From Aeromicrobium sp. PE09-221 (lineage in GTDB: Bacteria; Actinomycetota; Actinomycetes; Propionibacteriales; Nocardioidaceae): DNA of 64,000 nt. The stretch's first letter is position 1. Every line of letters begins with the position of its first letter. Where the stretch lies: contig NZ_MIJB01000025.1 of NCBI RefSeq assembly GCF_002174305.1, positions 1-64,000 of the forward strand, given 5' to 3'. The position numbers and the translations under genes were made by a program. Below, one piece after another: positions 34,034 to 40,793 of the stretch. The notes under the pieces are model-generated. The model was not told the DNA's origin. It saw only the letters and a program-made list of their open reading frames with translations, and made no database searches.

Positions 34034-35119
34034 GTGACCGATCGTCTCGCCCGTGCTCAAGCCCTCCTGTCCGATCGCGGCGTCGATGCGCTCCTGGTGA
34101 CCCCGGGTGCCGATCTTCGCTATCTCACCGGATACCACGCGCTGCCGCTCGAGCGGCTCACCTGCCTGGTGCTTCCGGCGCGCGGCGAGGCGAGCCTGGT
34201 GGTTCCCCATCTGGAGCGTCCCGCGGCCGTGGCGGCGGGTGTCACGCTGCCGATCGCCACGTGGCAGGAGACCGAGGATCCCTTCGCGCTCGTGGCACGC
34301 CTCGTCGGTGACGCCGAGGTCGTCGCGCTCGACGATCACATGTGGGCCGCCAGGGTCTTCGCGCTCGGTGCGGCGATCCCGGGTGCCGACCAGGTGCTCG
34401 GAGGCGAGATCGTCGCGGAGCTGCGCATGCGCAAGGAGCCCGCCGAGGTCGAGGCCCTGCGCGCGGCCGGGGCCGCGATCGACCGCGTCCACCGCCGTAT
34501 GGGCGAGTGGTTGCGTGCCGGGCGCACGGAGCGCGAGGTCGGCGAGGACATCGCCCGCGCCATCCTCGCCGAGGGACACGTGTCGGTCGACTTCGTGATC
34601 GTCGGCTCGGGGCCCAACGGCGCCTCACCACATCACGAGCTCTCCGATCGCGTCATCGAGGCGGGGGACCCGGTCGTGATCGACATCGGCGGCACCACGG
34701 CCGAGGGCTACTGCTCGGACTGCACCCGCACGTATGTGGTGGGTGGCGAACCCGATGAGGAGTTCGTGGCGCTCTATGACGTCCTGCAGCGCGCCCAGAC
34801 GGCGCAGCGGGAGCACGCGCGTCCTGGGGTGACGGCCGAGTCGGTCGACCGGATCGGTCGCGAGATCATCGCCGGTGCCGGCTACGGCGAGCTCTTCGTG
34901 CATCGCACGGGACACGGCATCGGCCAGGAGACGCACGAGGAGCCGTACATCGTCGAGGGCAACGCCCGTCTCCTCGAGCCCGGCATGGCCTTCTCGATCG
35001 AGCCGGGCATCTACCTCGATGGACGCTACGGCGCACGCATCGAGGACATCGCGATCTGCACCGATGACGGTGTGGAGGTCGTCAACACGACATCGCGGGA
35101 TCTCGTGCGTCTGCCGTGA
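34034..35119 (+). CDS. M24 Xaa-Pro dipeptidase (PepE/PepQ-like)
   Basis: A 361-residue metallopeptidase. The creatinase-like N-terminal domain (RYLTGYHALPLERL) is followed by a pita-bread catalytic domain. Metal ligands are the two Asp in VVIDIGGTT and YCSDCTRTY, the His in VHRTGHGIGQETHEEPY, and the Glu residues in FSIEPGIYLDG and ARIEDIAIC. It probably cleaves dipeptides ending in proline. The GTG start is leaderless; the stop overlaps lnt by GTGA. Confidence 0.93.
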   Translation: MTDRLARAQALLSDRGVDALLVTPGADLRYLTGYHALPLERLTCLVLPARGEASLVVPHLERPAAVAAGVTLPIATWQETEDPFALVARLVGDAEVVALDDHMWAARVFALGAAIPGADQVLGGEIVAELRMRKEPAEVEALRAAGAAIDRVHRRMGEWLRAGRTEREVGEDIARAILAEGHVSVDFVIVGSGPNGASPHHELSDRVIEAGDPVVIDIGGTTAEGYCSDCTRTYVVGGEPDEEFVALYDVLQRAQTAQREHARPGVTAESVDRIGREIIAGAGYGELFVHRTGHGIGQETHEEPYIVEGNARLLEPGMAFSIEPGIYLDGRYGARIEDIAICTDDGVEVVNTTSRDLVRLP

Positions 35120-36573
35120 ACGCGCTGCTCGCGATCGCCGGCTCCGGGCTGGCCGGCATCATCGCGTCGACCGCTTTCGCGCCCTGGGACATCCCGTGGA
35201 TCATGGTGCCAGCGGTCGCCGCGTGGCTGTGGTTGCTGCGCCGGATGGCGTCATCGCGACGTGTCACCGTCCTGCTGGCCGGCTTCGCCTTCGGCTGGGG
35301 GTACATGGGGCCGCTCATCTGGTGGATGAACGCCGTCGACCCGGCCGCATGGGTCGCGCTCGTCATGGCGCAGGCCCTGTTCTATGTGCTGATCGCCTGG
35401 GCCTTGCGCGCCGTGCTGCGCCTGCCCGGCTGGCCGTTGTGGGCTGCGGCCGTCTGGATGGCCGGTGAGAGCCTACGCGGGGCGATCCCGCTGTCGGGCT
35501 TTCCGTGGGGCCGTCTTGCCCACACGACGATCGACACGCCGATGGAATCGTGGGTGCGCCTCGTCGGCATGCCCGCCACCACCTTCGTCCTCGTGGTCAT
35601 GGCGTCGCTGCTCGTGCTCGTCGCCGAACGACCCCGTCGCGTGCTCCCGGCCGCGGTCGCCGGCGGCGCCCTCATCCTCTGGGGCGCCCTGCTCCCGGTG
35701 GGCCTGGCCGGGGCGGGAGACACGCATCGCGTGGCTGTGGTGCAGGGCGGAACCCCCGGTCCCTTCCTGCAATGGCCCCGTGGCGAGATCTTCGAACTCC
35801 ATGTGGAGGCGACCGCCGAGATCGACGAGCCGGTCGACATGGTCCTCTGGCCCGAGAACGCGATGGACATCGATCCGCTGACCGAGGCATGGGCCGGCGA
35901 TCGTCTCAGCGAGGCCTCGCGGGAGGTGGGCGCACCTATCCTCGCCGGGGGCATCCTCAACGGCCCCACGTCCACCACGGCCTACAATGCCGGCTTCGTC
36001 TGGACCCCGCGGGGACACCAGGAGACCTACGTCAAGCGCAAGCTCGTACCCTACGGAGAGTACGTGCCGTTGCGCCAACAGCTGGGTGACCTGGTGCCGA
36101 GGATCGACCGCGACATCCCCCGGGACATGCTTCCCGGGGACGAGCCCGGCGACCTGAGGATCGGCGGGGCGGTCATCGGTGACACGATCTGCTGGGACAT
36201 CGCCTATGACGGCATCGTGCGCGAGGCGATCGGGGGAGGTGCTGAGTTCCTGGTGGTCCAGACCAGCAATGCGAGTTTCGAGGGGACCTCGCAGCTGCGT
36301 CAGCAGTGGAATATCTCGCGGCTGCGGGCTATCGAGACCGGCCGTTACGTCGTCGTGCCGTCAACCAATGGCATCAGCGGAGTCGTGACACCCGACGGCG
36401 AGGTCGTCGCCGAGGCGCCCCTGCTGGAGTCCTCGGTCATGATCGAGGACATCACCGGAGCCACCGGAACGACACCAGCCCAGCGACTCGCCGCTCCACT
36501 GGAGGGGCTCATCGCCGGGCTGGCATTGGTCGGCGTGGTGGTGGCCTGGCAGGCCGGCCGGCGACGGGGTTAA
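35116..36573 (+). CDS. lnt: Apolipoprotein N-acyltransferase
   Basis: A 485-residue membrane enzyme that adds a third acyl chain to the N-terminal cysteine of lipoproteins. About seven N-terminal helices precede a nitrilase-like periplasmic domain with the catalytic triad: Glu in LWPENAMDID, Lys in YVKRKLVPYGEYVP, and Cys in GDTICWDIAYDG. A last membrane helix lies near the C-terminus. The FKBP lipoprotein in this window is a likely substrate. The C-terminal stop overlaps the convergent rbpA end by four bases. Confidence 0.95.
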   Translation: MNALLAIAGSGLAGIIASTAFAPWDIPWIMVPAVAAWLWLLRRMASSRRVTVLLAGFAFGWGYMGPLIWWMNAVDPAAWVALVMAQALFYVLIAWALRAVLRLPGWPLWAAAVWMAGESLRGAIPLSGFPWGRLAHTTIDTPMESWVRLVGMPATTFVLVVMASLLVLVAERPRRVLPAAVAGGALILWGALLPVGLAGAGDTHRVAVVQGGTPGPFLQWPRGEIFELHVEATAEIDEPVDMVLWPENAMDIDPLTEAWAGDRLSEASREVGAPILAGGILNGPTSTTAYNAGFVWTPRGHQETYVKRKLVPYGEYVPLRQQLGDLVPRIDRDIPRDMLPGDEPGDLRIGGAVIGDTICWDIAYDGIVREAIGGGAEFLVVQTSNASFEGTSQLRQQWNISRLRAIETGRYVVVPSTNGISGVVTPDGEVVAEAPLLESSVMIEDITGATGTTPAQRLAAPLEGLIAGLALVGVVVAWQAGRRRG

Positions 36574-36956
36574 GCGGTCTTCTTCTTGCTCCCCGAGCGC
36601 CGGTGCAGGTGCGGGGGACCGATTTCGCCACCGCGCAGAAGCTCCAAGCGCTCGCTCAGGAGGTCCTCGAGCTCGTCGACCGAGCGACGCTCGAGCAGCA
36701 TGTCCCAGTGGGTACGGATTGGCTTCTCGTCCTTGTCCTCGCCCGAGGTATCGGCACCGACCAGGCGGCCCATCTGCCCGGACTTGGGATCCTCCCATTC
36801 ACCGGGGATCTCCGCTTCCTCCGACATCGTCACGGTGAAGGTGCGGCCATCGGCGAGGGCGTACTCGACCTCCTGGCGCGGAGCCATCTCCACGCCGCGC
36901 TCGTCTTCGAAGCTCTGGGCACCGAGTCGGGCGCCTCGCAGTGCTCGTTCAGCCAT
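36570..36956 (-). CDS. rbpA: RNA polymerase-binding protein RbpA
   Basis: A 128-residue actinobacterial transcription factor that binds RNA polymerase and the main sigma factor and stabilises open complexes. It begins MAERALRGARLGAQSFEDER, has the RbpA core (FTVTMSEEAEIPGEWEDPKSG, with no zinc cysteines), and the sigma-interaction helix RTHWDMLLERRSVDELEDLL. An AAAGGGG ribosome site precedes the ATG, so this gene has a leader. Lnt and RbpA are also neighbours in other actinobacteria. Confidence 0.96.
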   Translation of the reverse strand: MAERALRGARLGAQSFEDERGVEMAPRQEVEYALADGRTFTVTMSEEAEIPGEWEDPKSGQMGRLVGADTSGEDKDEKPIRTHWDMLLERRSVDELEDLLSERLELLRGGEIGPPHLHRRSGSKKKTA

Positions 36957-39227: not shown

Positions 39228-40763
39228 TCAGATATCGCGGAAGGTCTCGATCTCCGCGCCGAGCGCGTTGAGCCTCGTCGCCAAGTCCTCATAGCCGCGA
39301 TTGATCACATAGACACTGCGCAGCACCGAGGTGCCCTTGGCGGCCAGCATCGCGAGCAGGATGACCACCGCCGGACGCAAGGCGGGAGGGCACACCAACT
39401 CGGCGCCGCTCCAGTGCGTCGGACCCTCGATGAGGACGCGGTGGGGATCCATGAGCTTGACTCGGGCACCGAGCTTGTTGAGCTCCGTCAGATAGATCGC
39501 GCGGTTCTCGTAGACCCAGTCGTGCAACATCGTCTGTCCGTCCGCCGTCGCCGCGATGACGGCGAAAAAGGGCAGATTGTCGATATTGAGGCCCGGGAAC
39601 GGCATCGGGTGGATCTTGTCGATCGGTGCCCTGAGCTGCGAGGGATGCGTCGTGATGTCGACCAGGCGGGTCTGCCCGTTCTCGGCCATGTACTCGGCGG
39701 ACCGTTCGTAGACGAAGCCCATCTCCTCGAGCACCGCGAGCTCGATCTCCATGAACTCGATCGGCACCCGGCACACCGTGATGCTCGACTTGGTGACGAT
39801 CGCGGCCGCGATGAGGCTCATCGCCTCGATCGGATCCTCGCTCGGGGCGTAGTCGACATCGGTGCGGATGTCCGGCTCACCGTGCACGCGCAGGGTGGTG
39901 GTGCCGATGCCCTCAATGCGCACGCCGAGCTTCTCGAGGAAGAAGCAGAGGTCCTGGACCATGTAATTCGAGCTGGCATTGCGGATGACGGTGACGCCAT
40001 CGTAGCGCGCGGCCGCGAGCAGCGCGTTCTCCGTCACGGTGTCGCCGCGTTCGGTGAGGACGATCGGACGCTCCGGACCGGTGCCCTGGGCGGCGGAGGC
40101 GTGGTAGCTGCCGTCGGTGGCGACGACCTTGAGACCGAAGGGACGCAGCGCCGTCATATGCGGCTCCACCGTGCGGGTGCCGAGATCACAGCCTCCCGCG
40201 TAAGGCAGCTCGAACTCGGGAACCCGGTGCATCAGCGGGCCGAGGAACATGATGATGCTGCGCGTGCGGCGCGCTGCGGCGGCATCCATCCCCGCGAGGT
40301 CGAGCTTCTCGGGCACCACGAGCTCGAGGTCGTTGTGCTCGTTCAGCCAGCGGGTCTTGACGCCGATGGAGTCCAGCACCTCGAGCAGGCGGTTGACCTC
40401 CTCGATGCGCGCCACCTTGCGCAGCACCGTGGTGCCGGTGTTGAGCAGCGATGCGCACAGCAGCGCGACACCGGCGTTCTTGCTGGACTTGACGTCGATA
40501 GCACCCTTGAGCGTGGTGCCGCCCTTGACCCGAAGGTGGCTCGGGCCCGACGTGCCGACACTGACGATCTCGGAGTCCAGGGCCGAGCCGATCCGGGCGA
40601 GCATGTCCAAGGTCAGGTTCTGCTGGCCCTTCTCGATGCGGTTGACGGCACTCTGGCTCGTGCGGAGCTCGGCGGCGAGCTGCGCCTGGGTGAGACCGGA
40701 GTGCTGGCGCGCATCGCGGATCAGGGTCCCAATGCGTCCGAGGTAGTCGTCTCGTTCCGTCAT
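39228..40763 (-). CDS. MurA with fused N-terminal XRE-type HTH domain
   Basis: A 511-residue fusion. Residues 8-65 are an XRE-type helix-turn-helix (IRDARQHSGLTQAQLAAELR, then TSQSAVNRIEKGQQ). The rest is a full UDP-GlcNAc enolpyruvyl transferase. Catalytic residues appear intact: Lys-Asn in SSKNAGVALL, the fosfomycin-target Cys in GGCDLGTRTVEPH, Asp in FPGLNIDNLPF, Arg in ALRPAVVIL. MurA makes the first committed peptidoglycan precursor. The fusion suggests a transferase that also binds DNA, perhaps sensing UDP-GlcNAc or PEP. A housekeeping murA is not in this window, so this could be the only copy or a paralogue. A palindrome overlaps its promoter. Confidence 0.9.
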   Translation of the reverse strand: MTERDDYLGRIGTLIRDARQHSGLTQAQLAAELRTSQSAVNRIEKGQQNLTLDMLARIGSALDSEIVSVGTSGPSHLRVKGGTTLKGAIDVKSSKNAGVALLCASLLNTGTTVLRKVARIEEVNRLLEVLDSIGVKTRWLNEHNDLELVVPEKLDLAGMDAAAARRTRSIIMFLGPLMHRVPEFELPYAGGCDLGTRTVEPHMTALRPFGLKVVATDGSYHASAAQGTGPERPIVLTERGDTVTENALLAAARYDGVTVIRNASSNYMVQDLCFFLEKLGVRIEGIGTTTLRVHGEPDIRTDVDYAPSEDPIEAMSLIAAAIVTKSSITVCRVPIEFMEIELAVLEEMGFVYERSAEYMAENGQTRLVDITTHPSQLRAPIDKIHPMPFPGLNIDNLPFFAVIAATADGQTMLHDWVYENRAIYLTELNKLGARVKLMDPHRVLIEGPTHWSGAELVCPPALRPAVVILLAMLAAKGTSVLRSVYVINRGYEDLATRLNALGAEIETFRDI

Positions 40764-40770
40764 AGCTTCG

Positions 40771-40776
40771 AGGCTA
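40771..40776 (-). promoter_or_regulatory. Leaderless -10 box, HTH-murA
   Basis: TAGCCT on the minus strand, seven bases before the ATG at 40763. Its first three bases are the end of the 20-base palindrome. Confidence 0.5.
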
Positions 40777-40793
40777 TCTCATGTGTGAGATAG
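40774..40793. promoter_or_regulatory. Palindromic operator candidate at HTH-murA
   Basis: CTATCTCA and TGAGATAG are perfect 8-bp arms around TGTG. The site overlaps the -10 box and lies 11 bases before the start codon of the HTH-MurA gene. Size and spacing suit an XRE-family dimer, so autorepression is the simplest reading. As RNA it would also form a hairpin after the upstream MBL gene, an alternative explanation. Confidence 0.6.

Follow-up and report, generated by a model that had tools for sequence, protein, structure and literature searches.

The window analyzed here is a stretch of 64,000 nucleotides from Aeromicrobium sp. PE09-221. On its minus strand, positions 39228–40763 encode a protein of 511 amino acids that begins with ATG and joins a DNA-binding domain to an enzyme of peptidoglycan synthesis; the ORF call, Pfam, NCBIfam and orthologues all agree on the gene, which we call HTH-MurA. 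The N-terminal domain (residues 11–65; 40569–40733, minus strand) is an XRE-type helix-turn-helix, matched by the Pfam models HTH_3 (residues 15–65, 1.7e-12, 47.6 bits vs. a gathering score of 23 bits) and HTH_31 (residues 11–62, 2.2e-10). A model for a regulator of anaerobic benzoate catabolism, NF006015, also matches the HTH at 5.7e-7. Within this domain, orthologue comparison identifies the recognition helix TSQSAVNRIE (residues 35–44; 40632–40661, minus strand) as the portion that co-varies with the operator described below.

The remainder of the protein (residues 76–511; 39231–40538, minus strand) is a MurA, or enolpyruvyl transferase, domain, as judged from Pfam, NCBIfam, individual residues and the predicted fold. 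It matches the Pfam EPSP_synthase domain at residues 79–496 (1e-44) and scores 323.5 bits against NF006873, an NCBIfam MurA subfamily with a cut-off of 297. With the stricter equivalog TIGR01072 it reaches 308 bits, below the cut-off of 392.7, and we therefore describe it as a divergent MurA subfamily and not as a TIGR01072 equivalog. The nearest solved structures by sequence are MurA proteins, and the AlphaFold model (mean pLDDT 85.7) aligns with MurA structures over the entire enzyme part, with a TM-score of about 0.9 on target length. The linker between the two domains, residues 65–72, is modelled at low confidence; its region is nevertheless partly conserved across orthologues (D63, V67, G70, G73, P74, H76).

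The residues K95-N96, R168, C192, R197, D395, R421, R463 and R489 are invariant in 204 family members. In the numbering of E. coli MurA, sanity-checked by residue positions, these are the equivalents of K22-N23, R91, C115, R120, D305, R331, R371 and R397, respectively. By alignment, the codon for C192 (40188–40190, minus strand) corresponds to that of Cys115, the catalytic-loop residue of E. coli MurA that is the target of fosfomycin. The original prediction had read the protein as a clear XRE helix-turn-helix at residues 8–65 followed by a MurA with its Lys-Asn, Cys, Asp and Arg active-site residues in place, and both halves of that reading are borne out by the domain matches and the invariant residues.

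A search of the Aeromicrobium genome for a second murA, which had been suggested as a check, found none: HTH-MurA is the only MurA, and a second, weak match of 41 bits reads as AroA, with the signature PGSKSLTNR. Because no other MurA is encoded and yet MurB, the next enzyme, is present, HTH-MurA would be expected to convert UDP-GlcNAc and PEP; barring a very unusual pathway, it must be a working MurA. The presumed activity rests on the catalytic residues and on the status of sole candidate, and the case is weakened by two features. Canonical MurA proteins (E. coli, mycobacteria) have the fold and catalytic residues in common with HTH-MurA, but they lack an HTH and an operator, are only about 25–35% identical to it, and carry a conserved aspartate, D369, where every one of the 204 family members has proline (P460). 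In addition, parts of the UDP pocket differ from those of canonical MurA.

Distribution of the fusion

The closest named record is from A. piscarium, with 98% protein identity. The fusion was also detected in Nocardioides, Brachybacterium, Kribbella, Actinopolymorpha, Nonomuraea, Allokutzneria, Streptomyces and others, and it is a gene family found across the class Actinomycetes, not a local oddity. Among 149 Nocardioidaceae genomes, a canonical MurA above the cut-off accompanies the fusion in 24, and nearly all of the others have the fusion only; judged by these matches, HTH-MurA is the sole MurA across most of the family. Streptomyces-type genomes encode both the fusion and a canonical MurA, to which it is about 32–34% identical. 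Their HTH-MurA loci encode proteins with about 75% identity to the Aeromicrobium protein and share its operator and leaderless -10 box. Given that S. coelicolor has two MurA genes, and given the match itself, the Streptomyces fusion is very probably murA2 (SCO5998; sven5810), which would place murA2 in the same gene family.

Two variations in MurA content were also seen. One Streptomycetaceae genome (G671) has three strong MurA-type genes, two of them over the MurA cut-off and one scoring like HTH-MurA. Four genomes of a single genus, g44 (G079, G483, G509 and G526, in the family of G106), are without HTH-MurA and have two canonical MurA-like matches each, at about 30–34% identity, which suggests that one MurA type was replaced by the other.

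Operator and promoter

Immediately upstream of the gene, at 40774–40793, lies a perfect palindrome, CTATCTCA-CACA-TGAGATAG, with the conserved core TATCTCANNNNTGAGATA at 40775–40792. Scans of the window, the genome and orthologues point to it as the operator. Next to it is the hexamer TAGCCT (40771–40776, minus strand), a TAnnnT-type box retained in orthologous promoters, whose opening TA doubles as the end of the operator core and whose last base is 7 nt from the ATG at 40763. A fair reading of this arrangement is that TAGCCT is a leaderless -10 box, with the transcript start predicted at the ATG. The 8-4-8 palindrome had been described from the outset as perfect and as overlapping a leaderless -10; it is indeed perfect, and it ends inside TAGCCT. 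In the window it is the sole site within 3 mismatches (0.05 expected in shuffles), and its 18-bp core is unique in the 4.0 Mb genome at up to 2 mismatches.

Absence of the palindrome from orthologous promoters had been named as grounds for rejecting the proposed model, and a comparison of these promoters showed the opposite. The alignment comprised 194 distinct orthologues with an HTH, of which 189 have an intact TSQSAVNR-type helix or a close variant. Each of these 189 distinct promoters contains TATCTCA-N4-TGAGATA at 10/14 positions or better (14/14 in 60, 13 in 90, 12 in 29, 11 in 8 and 10 in 2), while among the controls the reversed upstream sequences scored at most 9/14 and shuffles reached 11 once. 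In 184 of the 189, the final TA of the palindrome opens a TAnnnT box, and the in-frame start codon most often follows that box by 6–8 nt, as is typical of leaderless promoters in actinobacteria. A conserved -35 was not seen in the alignment of the 189 promoters.

When the operator was used to scan the Aeromicrobium genome, 38 other relatives and 61 Streptomycetaceae, nearly all matches were the HTH-MurA promoter. A wider regulon was considered and rejected, as the matches elsewhere in these genomes are few and look like chance. In one Streptomycetaceae genus, a second match proved to lie in the codons for the HTH (QNLSLE). As a separate observation, one contig (L242, 1501–1516) contains a perfect ATCTCA-TATA-TGAGAT upstream of a pectinase-like ORF and away from any murA; this site is unexplained and might be a chance occurrence, a second target or the site of another regulator.

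Co-variation and co-loss of the recognition helix and the operator

Lineages in which the HTH has changed indicate what binds the palindrome. All are in the family of G106. Four loci of one genus (L199, L200, L201 and L157) have a degenerate recognition helix, e.g., GMTETDIDRIEAGEHD; another locus (L213, in G504) has the decayed helix TTESTVERIEAGKET; and a sixth (L198, in G469) encodes a MurA without any HTH. The operator is gone in all six (best 5–8/14). In a tree built from the enzyme part only, these loci represent three separate loss events placed among intact relatives, and in every genome with a lost helix or HTH the gene is still the only MurA. L198 and L213 are thus natural controls for the regulatory domain. 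One of the six loci has an additional peculiarity: in L157 (from G106), the only MurA of the genome is split by a frameshift near DKIHPLPF (about 1440–1600), with an intact frame in sister genomes of the genus, and this may reflect faulty sequencing or else a frameshift, recent or programmed, in a gene that is essential.

Smaller changes in the helix are also accompanied by changes in the operator. In orthologues with a Ser-to-Gly helix (TSQG), which fall in two separate clades, both arms read AACTCA/TGAGTT in 8/8 cases vs. 1/181 of the others (Fisher 2.6e-13, with related sequences treated as independent). In one Aeromicrobium (L017/L037), the helix is TTQSVV and the operator is TATCGCA-N4-TGCGATA. 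Many of the sequences are close relatives, so that the counts overstate independence, and the independent events number three for loss and about three for changes of the helix. Co-variation of helix and arms together with co-loss is what would be expected if the helix of HTH-MurA itself reads the operator.

A different possibility is that the palindrome belongs to a separate regulator, i.e., a free XRE protein or, in Streptomyces, BldM-WhiI, and that the HTH of MurA serves another role such as oligomerization. There is some precedent for outside control, because sven5810, the murA2 of S. venezuelae, is a footprinted BldM-WhiI target (PMC4125116), and control of SCO5998 has been reported or predicted for SigB (PMC8346170) and DmdR1 (a predicted site; PMC12161575). 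The passages on murA2 control in these publications make no mention of its XRE domain or of the palindrome. The BldM-WhiI motif, TGnnCCGnnCGGGTGA, is unlike the palindrome, and its core occurs in a few Streptomyces, where it precedes the palindrome by about 28 bp; BldM-WhiI was accordingly rejected as the owner of the site. For separate regulators in general, the palindrome alters and vanishes jointly with the recognition helix of MurA, and its essentially single-copy occurrence also argues against such a protein. We consider this alternative distinctly improbable.

It might also be asked whether the palindrome arose by chance or folds into a hairpin in RNA, the HTH simply having been carried along in evolution. 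Taken in a single genome, a 20-bp palindrome is not impossible, and 5 of 100 shuffled windows contained a site within 3 mismatches. The palindrome's sequence, however, is kept over many genera at a near-fixed distance from the start codon, it lies upstream of the predicted transcript start, and homologues without the helix are without the palindrome. Conservation and co-variation in these alignments refute a chance or hairpin origin, to which we attach next to no probability.

The loss lineages also bear on the direction of control. HTH-MurA could in principle activate its own promoter through a MerR-like distortion of the spacer, since the operator extends over the spacer as far as the -10 box, a position that would also suit a distortion-type activator, and the promoter alignment shows no conserved -35. 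Lineages with a degenerate helix, on the other hand, retain a TAnnnT box 6–7 nt ahead of the start codon: the operator was lost, and the sole, essential murA kept its leaderless promoter. This is expected upon loss of a repressor and not upon loss of a required activator. XRE proteins that sit over a -10 normally repress, which further argues against activation, and we regard the activator reading as unlikely.

A proposed model of autoregulation

We propose that an active MurA permanently gained an N-terminal XRE domain, and that the resulting protein would bind, as a dimer and through that domain, to a single palindromic operator in the genome. The operator spans the spacer and the -10 box of the protein's own leaderless promoter, and so the bound protein would block RNA polymerase. 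When there is enough enzyme, or enough of it in a DNA-binding state, transcription of murA would fall. As read from the sequence comparisons, HTH-MurA very probably controls its own production, and there is a high probability that it is a dedicated, essentially single-target autorepressor at its own promoter. The parts of the model differ in strength. Binding of HTH-MurA to its own promoter is very strongly implied by the co-variation and co-loss, and we infer that it binds as a dimer. Two observations make repression likely: the palindrome and the -10 box overlap, and the leaderless -10 persists in degenerate-helix lineages that have no operator. The idea that the enzyme represses its own gene, put forward in the original prediction, is therefore strongly supported in its self-binding and autoregulatory aspects, with repression as the likely outcome.

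What would set the level of repression can be envisaged in two ways. Closing of the MurA domain upon ligand binding (UDP-GlcNAc together with PEP, UDP-MurNAc and PEP in the dormant state, or fosfomycin bound covalently) might govern whether the XRE dimer occupies the operator, a suggestion that extends the ligand-dependent release of the original prediction and that we hold at somewhat less than even. Plain feedback by abundance of the protein is equally open, because the linker is modelled at low confidence. An implication of a ligand switch, if true, is that HTH-MurA would be a class-wide trigger enzyme of the sensor type, in which the first committed enzyme reads the flux of peptidoglycan precursors and feeds back on its own transcription.

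Among known systems, there are several with which HTH-MurA can be compared. The trigger enzymes PutA (proline dehydrogenase; put operon) and BirA (biotin ligase; bio operon) are direct DNA-binding repressors (PMC6978683). Like them, HTH-MurA is predicted to be a metabolic enzyme that has its own DNA-binding module and acts at a pathway gene; unlike them, it would catalyze the committed step of peptidoglycan synthesis, uses an XRE module and has essentially only its own gene as target. In BzdR, an XRE domain is attached to a shikimate kinase-like domain whose enzymatic activity has been lost, and an intermediate that combines the enzyme with DNA binding has been built synthetically (PMC3602430). 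In both proteins a DNA-binding domain precedes a domain of enzyme origin, but BzdR responds to benzoyl-CoA and regulates a catabolic operon, whereas in HTH-MurA the active site is retained and the protein is frequently the sole MurA. Within the family itself, Streptomyces MurA2 coexists with a canonical MurA and is under additional developmental control (BldM-WhiI), while the Aeromicrobium protein is the only MurA. By analogy, HTH-MurA would work like the known bifunctional enzyme-repressors. The open-access literature yielded no description of an XRE-MurA fusion or of its operator, and an earlier description elsewhere is possible.

To our knowledge, control of the flux into peptidoglycan synthesis is poorly understood in actinobacteria outside the mycobacteria, in which CwlM targets the MurA protein itself. 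With HTH-MurA, an antibiotic target would be controlled by a circuit of a single protein, and Streptomyces, known for making antibiotics, is among the bacteria concerned; autoregulation would account for part of the regulation of Streptomyces murA2. HTH-MurA would also be a natural counterpart of the intermediate made synthetically for BzdR, in that a DNA-binding domain was added to an enzyme whose active site was kept, with loss lineages available as natural controls.

Finally, we note an arrangement elsewhere in the window, seen from sequence only: an apolipoprotein N-acyltransferase-like ORF (35116–36573, plus strand) meets an ORF for an RbpA-like RNA polymerase-binding protein (36570–36956, minus strand).
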